Made by a program: the position numbers and the translations under genes | In this document: piece by piece, positions 39,450-48,409 of the stretch | Numbering within the stretch: the first letter of the stretch is position 1 | Layout of the letters: each line of letters begins with the position of its first letter | Origin: Caldicellulosiruptor acetigenus | GTDB taxonomy: Bacteria > Bacillota > Thermoanaerobacteria > Caldicellulosiruptorales > Caldicellulosiruptoraceae | DNA length: 64,000 bases | Reading direction: 5' to 3' | NCBI RefSeq assembly: GCF_026914305.1 | Contig: NZ_CP113866.1 | Coordinates: 2,484,001 to 2,548,000, forward strand | The notes under the pieces: model-generated | Databases searched by the model: none | What the model was told of the DNA's origin: nothing | What the model saw: the letters and a program-made list of their open reading frames with translations, nothing else

Positions 39450-40340
39450 CTATATAGCAACATAGTTGCCTCCTTTCTTCTTAGCTTCGTACAATTTTTC
39501 ATCTGCACTTTCAATAAGCTGGTTTACATTTGAGATTTTCTCAGATAACATTGCAATACCAAAACTTGCAGTAAATACTATCTTGTTAGGACCATAGAAA
39601 AATTCTGTTTTGGCAACTTCTCTTCTTATTCTCTCACCTACGTTATATGCAGCAATCTCATTTGCATTTGTCAAACACACTAAAAACTCATCTCCACCAT
39701 ATCTTGCAACCCAATCACTTTCATCTCTAATGTTTCTTTTTATAATTTCTGCAAACTTTATCAGTACATTGTCACCTGCAATATGACCATAAGTGTCATT
39801 AATATTCTTAAAATTGTCTAAGTCAGAAAGTATTATGCTCAAAAATTGGTTGTTAGATATAGCCTTCAATATTTCAACCTCTAATCTTTCTTTTATAAAT
39901 CTTCTATTATAAACTCCTGTGAGTTCATCTATAACAAATATTTCATTTAGCCTATTAACTTTCTTATAAGTTTCTGTAGTATTATTTACATCTATTCCTT
40001 GAATTGTAAAAAGGTCGGTGACATCTTTTATAAATTCAATTACATATTCACCTTCTTGAGTTGAGATAGGTACTGTTGTTATCATAAAGATAGTGCTACC
40101 ATTATATTCAACTTTGAAAAACGATTTGTTTTCATAATACGACCTAATAGCAATACAATTTTTGCAAATCTTATTTTTCTTCCATAATTCATAACATGTT
40201 TCTTCAACATTACTTATTCCTTTTTCATTTATCAACTTAGCTGTCTTTCTCAGGGGGTCAACGATTCTTACCATATCATACATTTTTGAAAGTACCAAAA
40301 GGTGCTCCAAAAATGACTCAAGTTTAACTTTTTCACCCAT
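39450..40340 (-). CDS. Diguanylate cyclase with cysteine-bearing PAS-like sensor
   Basis: 296 residues from ATG at 40340 (AAGGTGA upstream). An N-terminal PAS-like domain (about 5-110) carries a C-x-n-C-x2-C cluster (ETCYELWKKNKICKNCIAIR). A short linker leads to a complete GGDEF domain (DELTGVYNRRF, SDLDNFKNINDTYGH, YGGDEF). The enzyme should make c-di-GMP. Such PAS cysteines could hold a metal or respond to redox. It is the last gene of the cooS operon, 42 bases after the oxidoreductase. Confidence 0.88.
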   Translation of the reverse strand: MGEKVKLESFLEHLLVLSKMYDMVRIVDPLRKTAKLINEKGISNVEETCYELWKKNKICKNCIAIRSYYENKSFFKVEYNGSTIFMITTVPISTQEGEYVIEFIKDVTDLFTIQGIDVNNTTETYKKVNRLNEIFVIDELTGVYNRRFIKERLEVEILKAISNNQFLSIILSDLDNFKNINDTYGHIAGDNVLIKFAEIIKRNIRDESDWVARYGGDEFLVCLTNANEIAAYNVGERIRREVAKTEFFYGPNKIVFTASFGIAMLSEKISNVNQLIESADEKLYEAKKKGGNYVAI

Positions 40341-40382
40341 AGTTTTATTCACCTTTTTTAATATATATTTCAAATTTTTTGT

Positions 40383-41663
40383 TCAAACTACAAATTCAAA
40401 ACTCCCGTCTGCCTTTTCACTAAAAAAATCACCATAGCTCAAGCTAAAAATCTTAGATAAATCTCCTTTATCCAACTTTTTCGATAAATTATATTTTCCC
40501 TCTATCAATTTGCCCATAACCCCTGCACCAACTATATCACCTTGAATTATTGCTCCATATAAAATCCCATCTTTGTATATAACCTTGTAGTAATAATCTT
40601 CACCTTCCAATGCAACTACCTCATAAGTGTTGTCAGGAGCTTCTGGATAACCGTAACTTATAGTAGGAATGCCAAAAAACTTCATGGAATACTTGAAGCC
40701 AAAATTATTTTCCATAGGTTTACAAAAACCTGCCATGTTATAACCTGCTATTTGTCCCTGTTTAACTGCTAATGGCCATATAGGAGCAACTCTATAACTT
40801 CCCGAAAAAGTCTCATAAGACTGGCATACATCCCCTGCTGCGAATATATCTGGGTCGTCTGTTCTTTGATATTCATCTACAATTATTCCGTGTTCTATTT
40901 TTACTTTTCCCTCTTCTATATCTGGAAACGATGGTCTGACTCCACTGGCTATAACCAGCATGTCAGTGTAAATAAAATCTCCATTTGAGAGTATGAGACC
41001 AATAGTGTTTTGTCTTTCTGAGTAAATTATTTGTTTAACCACTTCTCCTGTGACGATCCGAACACCATGTTTTTTAAACAGAGCTTCATACCTTTTTGCA
41101 GCTTTTTTATCTAACTGCTGAGGAAGTATATGATCTTTCATCTCCACTACAAAAACCAAAATTCCATATTCTCTGAGGTTTTCGGCCACCTGCAGTCCTA
41201 TAAATCCTCCACCGACAACTACCGCACTTTTGCTATACTTTGCTGCTTCTTTTATGTTTATAGCATCCTCAATATCCCTTAGCACAAATACTTTCCCTGT
41301 TTTCAGCGCTTCATTTAAACCATCTATGGGAGGCACAACTGGACAAGAACCAGTGGCTATTAATAGTTTGTCATATTCATATGTCCTTCCATCACAACAT
41401 ACAATTCTTTTTTTGCTTGCTTGTATATTTTTTATAGTAGTATTTTTTATCCAATTGATATTGTTTTCTTCAAAAAAGTTTTCATTTATGAAACTCATCT
41501 TGTCAAAGTCTTTTTTACCACCAATAAATTCAGGTAATAAGCAACGAGAATATATCTTATTGTCTTTAGAGATAACTGCTATATCTGCATTGTTGTCAAG
41601 ATTTCTGAGGGTCTTTGCACAATTTATCCCTGCAGCACTTGCACCAATTATTACGTATCTCAT
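40383..41663 (-). CDS. FAD/NAD(P)-dependent oxidoreductase (NirB/NADH oxidase-like)
   Basis: 426 residues with two dinucleotide-binding regions: FAD at the N-terminus (IIGASAAGINCA) and NAD near residue 150 (VVVGGGFIGLQVAENL), then DIFAAGDVCQ toward the FAD. It belongs to the pyridine-nucleotide disulfide-oxidoreductase family without a CxxxxC redox disulfide, like rubredoxin reductases and the FAD part of NirB. Next to cooS and cooF it would pass electrons between the ferredoxin and NAD(P)H. This gene trio is a known context for CODH genes. Confidence 0.88.
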   Translation of the reverse strand: MRYVIIGASAAGINCAKTLRNLDNNADIAVISKDNKIYSRCLLPEFIGGKKDFDKMSFINENFFEENNINWIKNTTIKNIQASKKRIVCCDGRTYEYDKLLIATGSCPVVPPIDGLNEALKTGKVFVLRDIEDAINIKEAAKYSKSAVVVGGGFIGLQVAENLREYGILVFVVEMKDHILPQQLDKKAAKRYEALFKKHGVRIVTGEVVKQIIYSERQNTIGLILSNGDFIYTDMLVIASGVRPSFPDIEEGKVKIEHGIIVDEYQRTDDPDIFAAGDVCQSYETFSGSYRVAPIWPLAVKQGQIAGYNMAGFCKPMENNFGFKYSMKFFGIPTISYGYPEAPDNTYEVVALEGEDYYYKVIYKDGILYGAIIQGDIVGAGVMGKLIEGKYNLSKKLDKGDLSKIFSLSYGDFFSEKADGSFEFVV

Positions 41664-41685: not shown

Positions 41686-42123
41686 TTAAACCTCAATGAG
41701 GTAAATAGCTTTTGTAGGACAGCTTTCTACGCATGCAGGTGTTTCTCTGTCAAAGCACATATCACACTTTAAGGCTTTCTTTTTATCCTTTGTGGGCTTT
41801 ATCATCCCATACGGACATGACATTACACACATAAAACAGCCCGCACACTTTTCCTTGTCAACTGTCACATACCCCGTTTTTTGGTCTTTCGTCAAAGCTC
41901 CTGACATACACGAAAGAACACATTCAGGAGTTTCACAGTGACGACAAGAAAGGGGAATAATTTGTCTGTTATGATTTATCACAACTTGGTTTGCAAAGTC
42001 TATATCCTGCCTTGTAATATCCAACTCAAGTACTGATTTAAGTTTTTTCTGATGCACTGCACATGCTAATATACAATTTAAACACCCCATGCACATCTCT
42101 GGATTTATAAAAACTCTTTTCAT
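41686..42123 (-). CDS. cooF: CooF-type polyferredoxin (four 4Fe-4S clusters)
   Basis: 145 residues with four cysteine groups: CMGCLNCILAC, CRHCETPECVLSC, CAGCFMCVMSC and CDMCFDRETPACVESC. This supports four [4Fe-4S] clusters in the HycB/CooF fold. It takes electrons from CooS-type enzymes and hands them to a partner, here presumably the FAD oxidoreductase encoded 22 bases downstream. It lies 20 bases behind cooS. Confidence 0.9.
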   Translation of the reverse strand: MKRVFINPEMCMGCLNCILACAVHQKKLKSVLELDITRQDIDFANQVVINHNRQIIPLSCRHCETPECVLSCMSGALTKDQKTGYVTVDKEKCAGCFMCVMSCPYGMIKPTKDKKKALKCDMCFDRETPACVESCPTKAIYLIEV

Positions 42124-42143: not shown

Positions 42144-44021
42144 TTAGATACCCAACTGTCTTCTTCTTTCATTCACAATAGCCTCAAGCTTATCAGCAGA
42201 TGATTTAACATCTCCATCAATTATCAGCATTCCTCCTGTTATGTCAGAAAGCTTTTCTGTTAAAATTTCTGTAACAAGACTGCTACCTGTTATAAACGGT
42301 GGAATTGAAAGATGCAAAGGCAATCCAAGCGCAAGCCCAAAAGCCCCATCTGCCAGTGCTTGTTCTTCGAGCCATTGTGGAGCTGACAATACCAACGGCA
42401 ACTGAGGAATGTCTATATTTAATGTTCGTGCAAGTTCAGCTGCAACCATTTCAAGCCTTCCAATGGCAAGACAAGGACCAAAGTTCAATACAGGAGGAAT
42501 GTTTAGCTTTTCACATACTTTTCTGAGTTTTTCTCCCGCCATCTTTTCTGCACCTTTTGACATAAATCCACAGTTTTCAAGTCCACCACTTGTGCATCCA
42601 GCAGAAAGAACAAGAATGTCCCTTTTTATCAATTCTTTTGTGAGCTCCACAGTAAATACATCGTGCCCAAGAGAAGTAAGATTTGAACATCCAACAATGG
42701 CAGCTATTCCTTTAATTTCACCTCTTGCAATGAGGTCAATAAGTGGTCTGTAATCTCCTCCCAAAAATTCTCTTAAAGAATCTTCGCTTATTCCTGTCAA
42801 CGATTGGTCAAATCCATGGTCAACAGGTATGTCTATCTGGACTTTGGTCCTTCTGAGTTTATAACTTTCCGCAGCTTCATTTAAAATTTTCTTTGCAATC
42901 TCATAGGCATTTTGAGGAGAATATTGAACAAGTTCAGCATTTGATTTTTTAGCAACATCATCAAGACACATCATCTTTACCATGTACTTCTCAGCAATAG
43001 GCTCAAGGCCGGGAATTGTACAATTAAATTCAGAAACCACAAGATCTATAGCACCTGTCGCTAATACAGCTTCGCTTGTGAAGTTATTTCCTGCATGGCC
43101 ACAAAACACAGAATTTGAATGTTCACCTCTTAGTTGAAAGTCTTGTCCGACACAGGTACATCCAATAATTCTGAAACCTTTTGCACCAACGCTTTGAGCT
43201 AACTGTTCGGCCTCTTTTTGATTTATCATTTCCATAAGTGCCCAGAAAAGAGAGTGCTGGTGTCCAGTTGGCATAATGTTTATATAGTCAGGATCAATCA
43301 CTCTAAATCCTACAGGAGCTGTTCTTATAACAGGCTCACCCATAATTATGTCATTGAGCATATTTGTCAATATAAGACCATAAAGACCTGTTGCAATTCC
43401 CAGTCTAAGTGCATGCATTAGCATATCAACAGGATCGCTTGAAAGATTGGTACTTGTTTTGACAAGTGCATCAAAAACTTCTGACTTTGCTCCACCAGGC
43501 AATAGATTTAGCTCTTCCCATTTTTGATATCTTGCTGGATATGATAAAAATTTCGTTAATTCCATCTTCTTCCATCTTGGTTTGTAAAGGTCTTCAAGAA
43601 CCATCTGCGAAATTTGCAAGGCTAATTCCTTTTCATCTCTATTTGGCACATTCAAAATTTCTGCAAGCTTGTGTAAGGTTCTTTTACCCTTGAAAGATAC
43701 ACTATTCTGAGCCATTTGCTTGAGGTTTTCTGCTGTATTTTCTACAACATGCAAATAACATGCAGCTCCTGCCGCCACAGCTCTTAAGAAATTTCTGGCA
43801 ACAATGGTGTGTGCATCAGCTCCGCATACACCCCTTTTCTGGTCAGGAGTAATTCTGCAGGGACCATTTGCGCATAGCCTACAACAAATTCCTTGAATTC
43901 CAAAACCACATTTGAGACTCTGCGGTCGAACACGGTTAAAAGATGTTTCAAGATTTGATTTTTGTTTAACAAACTTTTCTAATTCTTTATCAGCAATTTC
44001 GCAAAATTCTTGCACCTTCAT
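42144..44021 (-). CDS. cooS: CooS-type anaerobic CO dehydrogenase homolog with non-canonical active site
   Basis: 625 residues. The N-terminal cysteines C38/C46 and C47/C50/C55/C66 have the spacing of the D and B clusters. Other cluster cysteines fall at expected places (EFNCTIPGLE, IVGCSNLTS, SAGCTSGGLENC, NFGPCLAIGR). Several residues invariant in CO-oxidising enzymes differ: the R-H-G histidine region reads LRGEH, the AAGAAAHSDH relay reads AAGAACYLHV, and the W-x-x-E-K-A lysine is glutamine (QWLEEQAL). These comparisons are by eye against remembered sequences. It may catalyse another redox reaction. It is first in an operon controlled by an Rrf2 box. Confidence 0.85.
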   Translation of the reverse strand: MKVQEFCEIADKELEKFVKQKSNLETSFNRVRPQSLKCGFGIQGICCRLCANGPCRITPDQKRGVCGADAHTIVARNFLRAVAAGAACYLHVVENTAENLKQMAQNSVSFKGKRTLHKLAEILNVPNRDEKELALQISQMVLEDLYKPRWKKMELTKFLSYPARYQKWEELNLLPGGAKSEVFDALVKTSTNLSSDPVDMLMHALRLGIATGLYGLILTNMLNDIIMGEPVIRTAPVGFRVIDPDYINIMPTGHQHSLFWALMEMINQKEAEQLAQSVGAKGFRIIGCTCVGQDFQLRGEHSNSVFCGHAGNNFTSEAVLATGAIDLVVSEFNCTIPGLEPIAEKYMVKMMCLDDVAKKSNAELVQYSPQNAYEIAKKILNEAAESYKLRRTKVQIDIPVDHGFDQSLTGISEDSLREFLGGDYRPLIDLIARGEIKGIAAIVGCSNLTSLGHDVFTVELTKELIKRDILVLSAGCTSGGLENCGFMSKGAEKMAGEKLRKVCEKLNIPPVLNFGPCLAIGRLEMVAAELARTLNIDIPQLPLVLSAPQWLEEQALADGAFGLALGLPLHLSIPPFITGSSLVTEILTEKLSDITGGMLIIDGDVKSSADKLEAIVNERRRQLGI

Positions 44022-44084
44022 TTGTCAAAACCCCCTCTTCAGTATTAGTAGTATATTGTGAGACTAACACTTCATCTTTGTGAA

Positions 44085-44114
44085 TGTATACTAATTTGGT
44101 ATACATTTATTCAA
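44085..44114 (-). promoter_or_regulatory. cooS promoter with Rrf2-type operator
   Basis: A perfect palindrome TGTATAC-N7-GTATACA (44085-44105) overlaps a promoter with TTGAAT (44109-44114), 18 bases, TATACA (44085-44090) on the minus strand. A near-identical box lies in front of rrf2, so I take it to be the Rrf2 binding site. Repressor bound here would block RNA polymerase. Confidence 0.75.
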
Positions 44115-44134: not shown

Positions 44135-44548
44135 TTAGTTTCCATCCATTGATACAAGTTTATCAAAGGTATACTTTTCCAGTTCGTCAGAAACTTTTTC
44201 CATTACAGAACAGAAAGCTTTATGAACAGCACAATATCCTGTGGCTTTTTTATTGCACGCCAGAGGATCATAAAGGCACCGTGTCAGTGCCAAAGTTCCT
44301 TCCACTGCTATTATTACATCTTTCATAGTAATCTCTTCCGGTTTTTTAGCTAAGGTATAGCCACCATTTTTTCCTCGCACAGATTCTATTATTCCTGCTT
44401 TTACAAGATCTCTGCTTATTTTTAACAGAAATCTTTTGGGGATCTTTTCTTCTTGGGCAATTGTATCAGCCTCTACTACCATCCCCCTTTTCTTTGAAAG
44501 ATGCAATACCATTCTCAAAGCATAGTCTGCTGCCTGTGTAAGTTTCAT
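44135..44548 (-). CDS. Rrf2 family transcriptional regulator
   Basis: 137 residues from ATG at 44548 (AAGGGTGA upstream); the frame is open upstream to 44665 but overlaps the preceding gene. It has the family start MKLTQAADYALRMVLHL, the winged-helix region (EKIPKRFLLKISRDLVKAGI, RGKNGGYTLAKKPEEI) and three to four cysteines (TRCLYDPLAC, GYCAVHKAFC) in the position where IscR/NsrR/RsrR hold an iron-sulfur cluster. It probably senses redox state or CO/NO and controls itself and cooS through matching operators. Confidence 0.9.
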   Translation of the reverse strand: MKLTQAADYALRMVLHLSKKRGMVVEADTIAQEEKIPKRFLLKISRDLVKAGIIESVRGKNGGYTLAKKPEEITMKDVIIAVEGTLALTRCLYDPLACNKKATGYCAVHKAFCSVMEKVSDELEKYTFDKLVSMDGN

Positions 44549-44568
44549 ATACTCACCCTTGTTTTTAA

Positions 44569-44626
44569 AGTATACTATTTTGGTACACTTATTTATTATA
44601 TTAAACGTTCTCCTTCGAAATGTCAA
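44569..44626 (-). promoter_or_regulatory. rrf2 promoter with autoregulatory operator
   Basis: Minus strand promoter TTGACA (44621-44626), 17 bases, TAATAT (44598-44603). AGTATAC-N7-GTACACT (44569-44589) lies at the predicted transcript start and matches the cooS box at 17 of 19 core positions. Autorepression by Rrf2 is inferred. Confidence 0.7.
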
Positions 44627-44642
44627 TATTTTTAAAAAAATT

Positions 44643-46262
44643 TTATCCTCTTTTTTCAAACCCAATCAAAGCTGCACCCAGCGCACCTGTTATTTGAGGT
44701 TCAAAAGGAGTAAAAAGTTTTAGCCCCAATCTTTTTTCAAGTTCTGAAAAAATGCCTTTGTTTTTTGCAACACCACCTGTGAAAATAAAGTCTTCTTCAG
44801 CCTTTACTCTATTTACAAGTGAAATTATCTTAGTTGCAACAGCTTTATTTATAGCTCTTATTATATCTTCTCTTCTTTTCCCTTGAGCTACCAGGCTTAT
44901 AACCTCTGACTCTGCAAACACTGTGCACATGCTTGAAATTGTCAGATCCTCTTTTCCTTCTTGCCATTTTGAAAACTCTTCAACTTGAACCTCTAAAACC
45001 CTTGCCATATATTCTATAAACCTTCCTGTACCAGCTGAGCACTTGTCATTCATGACAAAGTCAACCACATTGCCGTTTTGGTCTATTTTTATAACTTTAC
45101 TGTCCTGCCCACCTACGTCAATTATGGTCCTTGCAGATGGAAAAAGAAAATGTATCCCTTTTGCATGACAGGTAATCTCTGTAACTTGAAGGTTGGCAAA
45201 TGGTATGCTAATTCTGCCATAACCGGTTGAGACAATAAAACCAATATCTTCTATTTTCAAACCAGCAAGTTCACAAGCCTTTTCAAGGGAAGACTTGGCA
45301 CTTTTTATAACATCAAATCCTGTTTTTGTGACAAAATAGCTTAAGATGTTTTTGTTGTCATCAATAATCACAACTTTTGTGGAGGTTGACCCACTGTCAA
45401 TGCCGGCAAAATATTTTTTTCGGCCTTGTTTTTCCATAGATTTTATTTGAGGCTTTTCTATTCTTTCTATAAATGCCTCAATGCGTGTTACAATCTGCTG
45501 AGAAAGTTCTTGAGCATAATCCACTTCAATTTTTAAAATGTTTTGCCTATCTTTTATCTTTGCATATTCAAATGAGTAAAAATCACAAAATTTTATTGTG
45601 TCATAAATGATTCCTTTGTAATGATTCTTGTTTAATAAATCCCTCTTCATATTCATTCTCATACATGGCAGAAGGCTTAAAAGAATTCTTGCATAGTCCT
45701 CAATACTCCCATCAAACTTATTATCTTGCAAACAAGTCCTCAGTCCTGAACAAGTGAGATTCAACACCCTCCCTTTTGACAGTTCAGTAGCTACCTTCAC
45801 AATATCTTCTCTTGCATGTGCTCCTAAAATTGCTATTTCACATTCTTCACTTTTGTAATTGTTAGTAAGCTTTCTTACTTCTCTTTCGAATATCTCCCTG
45901 TCAAATTCTTTTTTCAGATAATGCGAAAGCTTCTCTTTAAACCTTTTTAGCTCAAATGAGAAATATTCAATTGACTGAGGCAAATCCATCCGCGGAACGT
46001 CAATAATATCTATAAATTCCATTTTATCTTTTAAAACGTCATAAACTCTTTTCATGCTATCACAGCAAGCTGTCAGAACAATTCTTTTTATATCATTTTG
46101 TAATATGTACTCCAAAACTGCCTTGCTAAAACTGCAAAGATTTGTGTGTAAAAACCTTTCCGCATTTTCAACCGAAGCTACTTTCGGCTCTAACTTATAA
46201 GCTTCTTCACCAAAAGCTTTAATCAGCTCAACGGGAGTGTATTTGCAGACATAGGCTATCAT
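44643..46262 (-). CDS. HgdB-like domain fused to 2-hydroxyacyl-CoA dehydratase-type activase
   Basis: 539 residues. Residues 1-270 resemble a HgdB/BcrBC-type cluster-binding domain (VCKYTPVELIKAFGEEAYKL). Residues 280-539 are an ASKHA ATPase of the activator (HgdC/archerase) type: GIDSGSTSTKVV, DVGGQDSKVI, and the two cysteines that share a [4Fe-4S] cluster (KCSAGTGRF and SSMCTVFAESE). The activase uses ATP to inject a low-potential electron into its partner. It follows the HgdB-like gene by 15 bases. The closest described analog I know is the reductase of the double-cubane cluster protein. Confidence 0.85.
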   Translation of the reverse strand: MIAYVCKYTPVELIKAFGEEAYKLEPKVASVENAERFLHTNLCSFSKAVLEYILQNDIKRIVLTACCDSMKRVYDVLKDKMEFIDIIDVPRMDLPQSIEYFSFELKRFKEKLSHYLKKEFDREIFEREVRKLTNNYKSEECEIAILGAHAREDIVKVATELSKGRVLNLTCSGLRTCLQDNKFDGSIEDYARILLSLLPCMRMNMKRDLLNKNHYKGIIYDTIKFCDFYSFEYAKIKDRQNILKIEVDYAQELSQQIVTRIEAFIERIEKPQIKSMEKQGRKKYFAGIDSGSTSTKVVIIDDNKNILSYFVTKTGFDVIKSAKSSLEKACELAGLKIEDIGFIVSTGYGRISIPFANLQVTEITCHAKGIHFLFPSARTIIDVGGQDSKVIKIDQNGNVVDFVMNDKCSAGTGRFIEYMARVLEVQVEEFSKWQEGKEDLTISSMCTVFAESEVISLVAQGKRREDIIRAINKAVATKIISLVNRVKAEEDFIFTGGVAKNKGIFSELEKRLGLKLFTPFEPQITGALGAALIGFEKRG

Positions 46263-46277
46263 TCAGCTCCACTCTCC

Positions 46278-47528
46278 TCATTTGACTCTCTCTAAAAATG
46301 CTTCAAGCCGAGTTCTTATCTGTCCCTTGCTATTGTTCTTCTTGTTAACGCAATCTACATCTATAGAGGTAAATGGAATACCAAGAGTTTCAATGTTCGA
46401 TTTTAAAAGCATTGAGCATCCTATAGACTGTTTGCATCCCATCTGGCATATCTGCAAAACTCCATCTGGCTTTAAAACTTCTATTAAAGTTTTGATGTGC
46501 TCAAATCTTCTTTTAAAATCACCATTATATGGATTTTTCAAAAGTTTTTCGCAAATTGCTTCTATTGGGTCTTGTTCGTTTATTTCCTCTAAAAAGTCGA
46601 AATTCAGGTCCATCCCAAGGACATTTATTTTGTTGCTGAAATTGAAATACTCTTTAAAATTTTCTTCAAATATAGGAAGTGTGTGTATAAAGAAAATACT
46701 TTTACCGTCTCTTTCTTCTGAGTTTTTCAGGTCATCAACAAACATCTGATAAAACCTCAAAGCCTGGTCAGTGCCACAGAACACATGCGAAGGATAGAGC
46801 ATAAACATCTCAAATGTAAGTGTGGTTTTAATGTTTTTTGTTGCCCTCAGTTTCAGGCTTTCTTTTATAAGTTTTTTTGTTACATTTTCTTTTTTTATAA
46901 TCTTAGCTAAATAGTCAAGATTAAGTTTTCGACCTGTCAGCTTTTCTATGGACTTTATCATACTGCTCAGCTGTGCTTTTAAATACTGCCTTGCCTCTTT
47001 GGAATCTTCAGATGGAACATCTAAAAAGAAAAATGGCAGTTTTAAAGTCTCAGACAAAAATCTAAATGTATTTAGGTTGGCATCACAGATACTTGAAGTT
47101 GCAACCAAAAATTTTGGCTTTTTTAAAAGATTTGAAATTGCAGCACCTAAAAAAGCTTTGTGAAAAGTACAAAAGCTTTCGCTTATTCCCTGGCTTTCTA
47201 CTCTCAAGATGAGCTCGTCTTCCACATCAAGTCCTGATAAAAACGCAGAAATTGCTTCAACAAAGATGGGATTAAAGCCAAAAGCAAGTAAAATTTCACT
47301 TGGAGCAAATAGATTTACCCATACACTACTTTTGCTTGCAATTCCTTTGTAAGTCCAATCAAAGACCACTTCATGCAGATATTGAAATGACCTTGGAAGT
47401 CTTTTGTCTGGAAAATACTTAACATAGTTTTTCCCAATCAATATCCCACTTTTTAAAAGCCAATATCCGTTTTTGTTGTTTTGAATCAAGCTATTTAATA
47501 GCCTGCTATAAAGCATCATGTAACTCAT
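46278..47528 (-). CDS. HgdB-like iron-sulfur protein (possible double-cubane cluster protein)
   Basis: About 416 residues of the 2-hydroxyacyl-CoA dehydratase subunit D (HgdB) superfamily. Cysteines in FCTFHKAFLG, SSICDANLN, VFCGTDQA and QICQMGCKQSIGC are placed as in cluster-binding members. No acyl-CoA substrate enzymes or second (alpha) subunit lie nearby, and it is followed by its own activase fusion, as for double-cubane cluster proteins that reduce small molecules. ATG at 47528 is a plausible start (the frame opens at 47549). Substrate unknown. Confidence 0.8.
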   Translation of the reverse strand: MSYMMLYSRLLNSLIQNNKNGYWLLKSGILIGKNYVKYFPDKRLPRSFQYLHEVVFDWTYKGIASKSSVWVNLFAPSEILLAFGFNPIFVEAISAFLSGLDVEDELILRVESQGISESFCTFHKAFLGAAISNLLKKPKFLVATSSICDANLNTFRFLSETLKLPFFFLDVPSEDSKEARQYLKAQLSSMIKSIEKLTGRKLNLDYLAKIIKKENVTKKLIKESLKLRATKNIKTTLTFEMFMLYPSHVFCGTDQALRFYQMFVDDLKNSEERDGKSIFFIHTLPIFEENFKEYFNFSNKINVLGMDLNFDFLEEINEQDPIEAICEKLLKNPYNGDFKRRFEHIKTLIEVLKPDGVLQICQMGCKQSIGCSMLLKSNIETLGIPFTSIDVDCVNKKNNSKGQIRTRLEAFLERVK

Positions 47529-47563
47529 CTTTATCATCCACACATACAAAAGGTTTTATATTC

Positions 47564-47679: not shown

Positions 47680-47908
47680 CCGTCGACCTCAGGTGCAAAT
47701 TTTTAAGAAGCTTATTTGTATTCGATTTCAAGTTTGCAGGATGTGGGTTTGAATGTATTTCTGGCAGCAACTGGATAGACGAAAAGGCTTGAAAGGCTTT
47801 TCCTATTTGATGTAGCTGGGTTTGTGTTGATATTGAGGTGATGTATTAATATAAAAACATTGACAGTGGTGCATAAAGTTGATATAATAAAATCAAGCTT
47901 TTCAACCT
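47680..47908 (+). promoter_or_regulatory. CRISPR leader with consensus promoter
   Basis: The segment upstream of the first repeat contains a CCGTCGACCTCAGGTGCAAA element of the kind found in leaders of clostridial type I arrays. It ends with a perfect sigma-70/sigma-A promoter: TTGACA (47860-47865), 17 bases, TATAAT (47883-47888). The transcript would begin about 14 bases before the first repeat. The rest of 47593-47680 holds nothing I recognise. Confidence 0.7.
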
Positions 47909-48409
47909 GTTTGTAGCCTCCCCTTTGGGGATTGAAACACCTCCTCGTTTATCAGAATTTCACCCATAAGCTCAGTTTGTAGCCTCCCCTTTGGGGATTG
48001 AAACGTGCCAGGAATAATATAAGCTGGGTCTTTACAAATCATGTTTGTAGCCTCCCCTTTGGGGATTGAAACGTGCCAGGAATAATATAAGCTGGGTCTT
48101 TACAAATCATGTTTGTAGCCTCCCCTTTGGGGATTGAAACTAAATATCATCCCCTTTGATGATGTATATGAAGCCTTGGTTTGTAGCCTCCCCTTTGGGG
48201 ATTGAAACAATTTGTTGGTACAAGGGGAGTGCCACCTAACCTTGAGTTTGTAGCCTCCCCTTTGGGAATTGAAACAAATAAAAACCCTTGGTATTTTATT
48301 AATTTTATAATGTTTGTAGCCTCCCCTTTGGGGATTGAAACATATGAATGCTTGTCATTGTCCTGCACCTTCTTTTGTAGTTTGTAGCCTCCCCTTTGGG
48401 GATTGAGGG
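47909..48409 (+). CRISPR. CRISPR array, eight 30-base repeats and seven spacers
   Basis: Repeats start at 47909, 47975, 48043, 48111, 48179, 48246, 48312 and 48380. Each begins GTTTGTAG, has a CCCCTTTGGGG hairpin centre and ends ATTGAAAC. The sixth has one change (GGGAATT) and the eighth has a decayed 3' end. Spacers are 36, 38, 38, 38, 37, 36 and 38 bases. Spacers 2 (48005-48042) and 3 (48073-48110) are identical. The ATTGAAAC handle and the leader set the orientation as plus. The repeat style is that of type I-B/III systems. No cas gene lies in the window. Confidence 0.97.

Follow-up and report, generated by a model that had tools for sequence, protein, structure and literature searches.

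Caldicellulosiruptor acetigenus carries a gene, cooS, for a homologue of the catalytic subunit of nickel carbon monoxide dehydrogenases (Ni-CODH) in which catalytic residues of CODH-II of Carboxydothermus have been replaced. Does such a protein still interconvert CO and CO2 or has it turned to another reaction? The gene lies in the stretch of DNA analysed here (the window; 64,000 nucleotides, positions 2,484,001 to 2,548,000 of contig NZ_CP113866.1). A preliminary description of the window had found the catalytic motifs of CooS to differ from those of CO-oxidising enzymes, and had suggested a different active-site cluster and a different reaction, for example the reduction of small nitrogen compounds.

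The active site of CooS

The gene and the codons discussed below are as follows; the counts refer to 80 named CooS relatives from a scan of the collection, at about 62-69% identity.

42144-44021, minus strand: cooS, clade C Ni-CODH catalytic subunit, 625 aa (ORF list, profile match, alignment, tree)
43755-43757, minus strand: codon for Tyr89, aligned with the acid-base His93 of CODH-II (alignment; Tyr in 80/80)
42360-42362, minus strand: codon for Gln554, aligned with the acid-base Lys563 of CODH-II (alignment; Gln in 80/80)
43260-43262, minus strand: codon for His254, the C-cluster ligand His261 of CODH-II (alignment; 80/80)
43152-43154, minus strand: codon for Cys290, the C-cluster ligand Cys295, which is Glu in CooS-V (alignment; 80/80)
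43020-43022, minus strand: codon for Cys334, the C-cluster ligand Cys333 (alignment; 80/80)
42687-42689, minus strand: codon for Cys445, the C-cluster ligand Cys446 (alignment; 80/80)
42594-42596, minus strand: codon for Cys476, the C-cluster ligand Cys476 (alignment; 80/80)
42471-42473, minus strand: codon for Cys517, the C-cluster ligand Cys526 (alignment; 80/80)

The cooS reading frame is intact. Its product scored 790.5 bits (E 8.9e-238) against TIGR01702, the profile for the Ni-CODH catalytic subunit, for which the curated cut-off is 478 bits, and an AF2 model (pTM 0.87) matched CODH chains at a TM of about 0.9. Alignment was with CooS of T. kivui, CODH-II (entry 1su6, from a search of the PDB), CooS-V and the Thermococcus CODH. 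All six C-cluster ligands of CODH-II were found to be kept, as were the B- and D-cluster cysteines (C38, C46, C47, C50, C55 and C66), the latter confirming the preliminary description. Where that description spoke of several retained C-cluster cysteines, all five are in fact present. Two of the motifs that it singled out, AAGAACYLHV and QWLEEQALAD, are both there and represent real changes, His93 to Tyr89 in the first and Lys563 to Gln554 together with Ile567 to Asp558 in the second; the H96/H99/H102 relay of CODH-II is also absent. The third, read as a C-cluster histidine changed from RHG to LRGEH, was misassigned. The alignment puts this stretch after Cys295, there is no C-cluster ligand inside it, and the actual ligand His261 has a conserved counterpart in H254, within GHQHS. 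As a separate observation, the loop at CooS residues 299-312 (about 43086-43127), also after Cys295, is ~7 residues longer in clade C than in clades E and F, and His309 within it is near-invariant (79/80).

With the Tyr and the Gln invariant in all 80 relatives, as are the C-cluster ligands, the replacement is not due to chance. When references from clades D, E and F were included in a tree, the enzymes with Tyr, Gln and Asp were monophyletic (23/23, support 1.0). His93 and Lys563 of CODH-II hydrogen-bond the oxygens of CO2 (PMC5458731), and K563A/H93A mutants of CODH-II are among the PDB entries, though a literature search found no papers on the activity of these mutants. The loss of the acid-base pair, real and fixed across the clade, makes normal fast CO oxidation doubtful. 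The pattern had gone unrecognised in the preliminary description but was already known: a complete C-cluster set with His to Tyr and Lys to Gln is the hallmark of clade C (Inoue et al. 2019, Table 2, PMC6344411). Judged by its sequence, CooS is thus a clade C Ni-CODH, a branch already described. Group C-1 has two to four extra N-terminal cysteines and CooS has a single one (C7), hence the assignment to the C-2 type.

The operon and a predicted operator

The genes around cooS and the candidate regulatory sites are listed here.

41686-42123, minus strand: cooF-type polyferredoxin (Fer4_11), 145 aa (profile match; conserved beside cooS)
40383-41663, minus strand: FNOR, FAD/NAD(P)-dependent oxidoreductase with a rubredoxin-reductase C-terminal domain, 426 aa (profile match, relatives)
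44135-44548, minus strand: rrf2, IscR/NsrR-like regulator with three invariant cysteines, C91, C98 and C106 (profile match, relatives)
39450-40373, minus strand: GGDEF protein, starting 9 bp after FNOR (ORF list, profile match)
44083-44107, unstranded: predicted Rrf2 operator 1, a perfect inverted repeat AATGTATAC-N7-GTATACATT between rrf2 and cooS (palindrome, motif scan)
44567-44591, unstranded: predicted Rrf2 operator 2, an imperfect copy some 19 bp upstream of the ATG of rrf2 (motif scan)

The gene order is rrf2-cooS-cooF-FNOR and the cooF and FNOR neighbours are conserved in relatives. CooF, FNOR and an Rrf2-type regulator, the gene context of clade C, are all found at the window locus. 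The start of rrf2 is probably the ATG at 44548 and the listed upstream TTG wrong, since the Rrf2 domain begins at MKLTQAADYA as judged from the sequence and the Pfam match. The three cysteines of the regulator are kept in 47/47 relatives, as in the Fe-S-binding Rrf2 regulators IscR and NsrR. The GGDEF gene is possibly cotranscribed with FNOR and its membership in the system is uncertain; its product carries an N-terminal Cys cluster (CYELWKKNKICKNC), and in a few relatives (L123, L137, L160 and L167) the neighbourhood of cooS also has GGDEF genes. Upstream of rrf2, at 44643-47549, there is a pair of genes of the 2-hydroxyglutaryl-CoA dehydratase/BadF-type ATP-dependent reductase-activase kind, in one of which the HGD-D part is fused to the activase. 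Further on, at 47904-48409 with degenerate copies to 48524, lies a CRISPR-like array with the repeat GTTTGTAGCCTCCCCTTTGGGGATTGAAAC spaced at about 66-68 nt, one repeat-spacer unit of which is duplicated exactly (47975-48110).

Operator 2 stands just past a promoter-like site (10/12) at 44626-44598 on the minus strand. Across clade C loci the sites conform to a 25-bp palindrome, AAA[CG]TATACY-N5-RGTATA[CG]TTT. A core match of at least 9/10 was found before cooS in 35 and before rrf2 in 39 of the 48 loci with an adjacent rrf2, the window included, against a background of 0.086 per kb. A search of 26 genomes gave 42 sites, 35 of them at the cooS locus and seven elsewhere. Three of these seven are directly before cydA, for cytochrome bd, with 0-2 mismatches (L205 2654 in G144, L206 4079 in G285 and L207 3710 in G349). 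The identity of cydA in these genomes is supported by Pfam E values of 1.5e-178 to 6.5e-184, and by a rough estimate (a 350 bp target in about 3 Mb) the chance of such a placement is below 1e-9. The other four off-locus sites in the 26 genomes had no evident link. In the window's own genome a genome-wide scan within two mismatches returned solely the two sites at the cooS locus; with up to three mismatches there were five sites, hardly above the four of a reversed-pattern control, and the region upstream of hcp had no good site. In C. beijerinckii HUN142 an operator-like site (18/20; L121) was seen 5550 bp after the cooS start, before the gene for a 640-aa acyl-CoA-dehydrogenase-like protein.

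The palindrome, new here, is a predicted Rrf2 operator before rrf2 and cooS and, in three relatives, before cydAB. The cydAB link was seen in these relatives and not in the window genome; the predicted shared operator points to a role in O2 or NO stress. The C. ljungdahlii cluster is cited by Inoue et al. 2019 (PMC6344411) as O2-induced, and cooS of that organism carries a 9/10 operator site (L140). The cydAB-linked operator and the Rrf2 cysteines fit this induction.

The reaction of CooS and its rivals

CooS of T. kivui has the same Tyr and Gln. Its gene is L179 in genome G410, where both published internal cooS primers match exactly (a second genome, G407, has mismatches to them), and the protein is 54.7% identical to that of a genus-mate of the window; Jain et al. 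2021 (PMC8683389) give 54% identity to C. hydrothermalis. The purified T. kivui enzyme, CooSF1, oxidised CO at 13.9 U/mg with methyl viologen and at 0.5 U/mg with ferredoxin, for which AcsAB provides the comparison of 213.9 and 111.5 U/mg, respectively (PMC8683389). Contamination with AcsAB fails to explain this activity, since if all of the activity with ferredoxin came from AcsAB (0.45%) it would bring only about 1 U/mg with viologen. Bohm & Land doubted that the activity seen is that of the wild type, and cautioned that CooSF1 may derive from a CO-adapted strain; according to Jain et al., cooS was amplified from T. kivui genomic DNA and expressed in DSM 2030 (PMC8683389). Within the clade the T. 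kivui CooS is the first to branch off, FNOR and Rrf2 genes are not found beside it and its genome is devoid of an operator site, so that it may not be representative of the window enzyme. A C. autoethanogenum mutant in acsA that retained cooS1, a clade C gene, did not oxidise CO but produced it, and a cooS1 knockout grew faster on H2/CO2. Taken together, the results from the two organisms make slow CO chemistry, possibly toward CO2 reduction, the economical reading. As an enzyme with the same Tyr and Gln oxidises CO, the data can be explained without the different reaction proposed in the preliminary description.

The window CooS is the only CODH in its complete genome, and neither CooC nor ACS accompanies it, an observation that is new here. 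The best match to CooC in this genome (99.99% complete) reached 19.9 bits, compared with 177-448 bits in positive controls, and CdhC/ACS was not found in it (G000) although the controls were positive, so that CooS does not belong to a CODH/ACS. The sole other Prismane-family protein is HCP-sized (557 aa). In G361 and G365, which are from other families, the only CODH-sized match is likewise a clade C CooS, accompanied by HCP-sized proteins but not by CooC. CooC or a CooC-like protein was found in 14 of the 20 genomes tested. Because CooC is absent from the window's genome, nickel loading of the site is not assured.

On balance we think that CooS probably interconverts CO and CO2 slowly, is linked to NAD(P)H by CooF and FNOR, and serves under oxidative or nitrosative stress. 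The CooS dimer would build a cluster of the C-cluster type, and its CO/CO2 redox chemistry would be slow for lack of the residues that in CODH-II form hydrogen bonds to CO2. Electrons would be exchanged with NAD(P)H via CooF and FNOR. Rrf2 would use an Fe-S cluster to sense O2, NO or Fe-S status and would induce the operon under stress, and the physiological role would then probably be redox balancing or defence and not growth on CO.

The absence of CooC may instead mean that the site lacks nickel and holds Fe-S only or another metal, in which case CooS would use NAD(P)H to reduce O2, peroxide or NO, or would serve as a redox sensor. The lack of CooC, ACS and any other CODH in the complete genome, the similar situation in G361 and G365, and the operator common to cooS and cydAB in relatives would all agree with this. 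However, every ligand of the nickel cluster is kept, CODH-II is reported to be active without maturases and most of the genomes tested encode CooC or a CooC-like protein, and we regard a nickel-free site as unlikely. Slightly less likely again is a version confined to CooC-free genomes, in which the cluster of a clade C CooS would be nickel-free or atypical and the protein would work with CooF and FNOR as a reductase that draws on NAD(P)H and acts on O2, NO or a related molecule; the single Rrf2 stress regulon to which it belongs would in some anaerobes also take in cytochrome bd.

Another proposal, which takes up the idea of the preliminary description, is that CooS has an Fe-S-O hybrid cluster like that of HCP, as CooS-V does, and acts as a reductase of hydroxylamine, NO or similar nitrogen compounds. 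CooS-V was the best fold match of the AF2 model and shares the Tyr at the His93 position, the regulator is NsrR/IscR-like, and there is an HCP-like gene in the same genome. It is the change of Cys295 to Glu, however, that makes CooS-V a hybrid-cluster protein, one without CO chemistry (PMC9311411), and the window CooS has Cys290 there, as do all 80 relatives. CooS-V moreover keeps the Lys that the window enzyme has lost, the D-cluster Cys47 is kept in the latter, the two clades are separate in the tree, and CO oxidation is on record for the T. kivui relative, which has the same residues. With all six canonical ligands in place a different active-site cluster is not supported, and we consider a hybrid-cluster enzyme improbable. 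An HCP-like identity of CooS as such was rejected on the Cys at the Cys295 position and on a score of 24.6 bits against TIGR01703 (hybrid cluster protein), below the curated cut-off of 360.8 bits.

That the gene is decaying and has no current function is hardly credible: the locus is patchy in the genus (4/12 genomes), with rrf2 kept beside an 81-aa C-terminal remnant of cooS in one genus-mate (L016 in G002) and cooF and FNOR not adjacent to cooS in another genome, but the window frame is intact, all motifs are kept at 77% identity to genus-mates and the operators are intact.

Clade C enzymes are widely distributed among anaerobic Firmicutes, clostridia of the gut and gas-fermenting ones included, and the literature on them is in conflict: CO oxidation was slow in T. 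kivui, and in C. autoethanogenum the remaining CooS enzymes showed none. A genome in which a clade C CooS is the only CODH, with neither CooC nor ACS, offers a clean setting for a test. The predicted operator, placed before cydAB as well in three relatives, replaces the vague 'regulatory role' of clade C with a direct prediction, an O2/NO/Fe-S stress regulon.

Comparison with known systems

CooS-V of Carboxydothermus (clade D, PMC9311411) has in common with the window enzyme the CODH fold and the Tyr at the His93 position, and differs in the Glu at Cys295, the retained Lys563 and the hybrid cluster. CooSF1 of T. kivui (Jain 2021, PMC8683389), the nearest relative to have been characterised, has 52-55% identity, the same Tyr and Gln and CooF downstream; it differs in having no adjacent FNOR or Rrf2 and no operator, and in a genome that contains CooC and ACS. 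The arrangement rrf2-cooS-cooF-FNOR is one already described. A CooS-CooF-FNOR cluster of the same three genes was named in Caldicellulosiruptor saccharolyticus, probably another species of the window's genus, by Geelhoed et al. 2015 (PMC4703632), who placed its CooS in one group with the C. ljungdahlii and C. autoethanogenum enzymes. With groups C-1 and C-2 of Inoue et al. 2019 (PMC6344411) the window enzyme shares the C-cluster His and five Cys, the acid-base changes of His to Tyr and Lys to Gln and the type II D-cluster, as well as a gene cluster with FNOR, a COG0437-type CooF and a COG1959 (NsrR/IscR-like) regulator. It differs from them in being the sole CODH of its genome, which leaves its membership unbroken. 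Both the enzyme branch and the operon are known, and the value of the locus lies in its sole-CODH, CooC-free setting and in the predicted operator with the link to cydAB.
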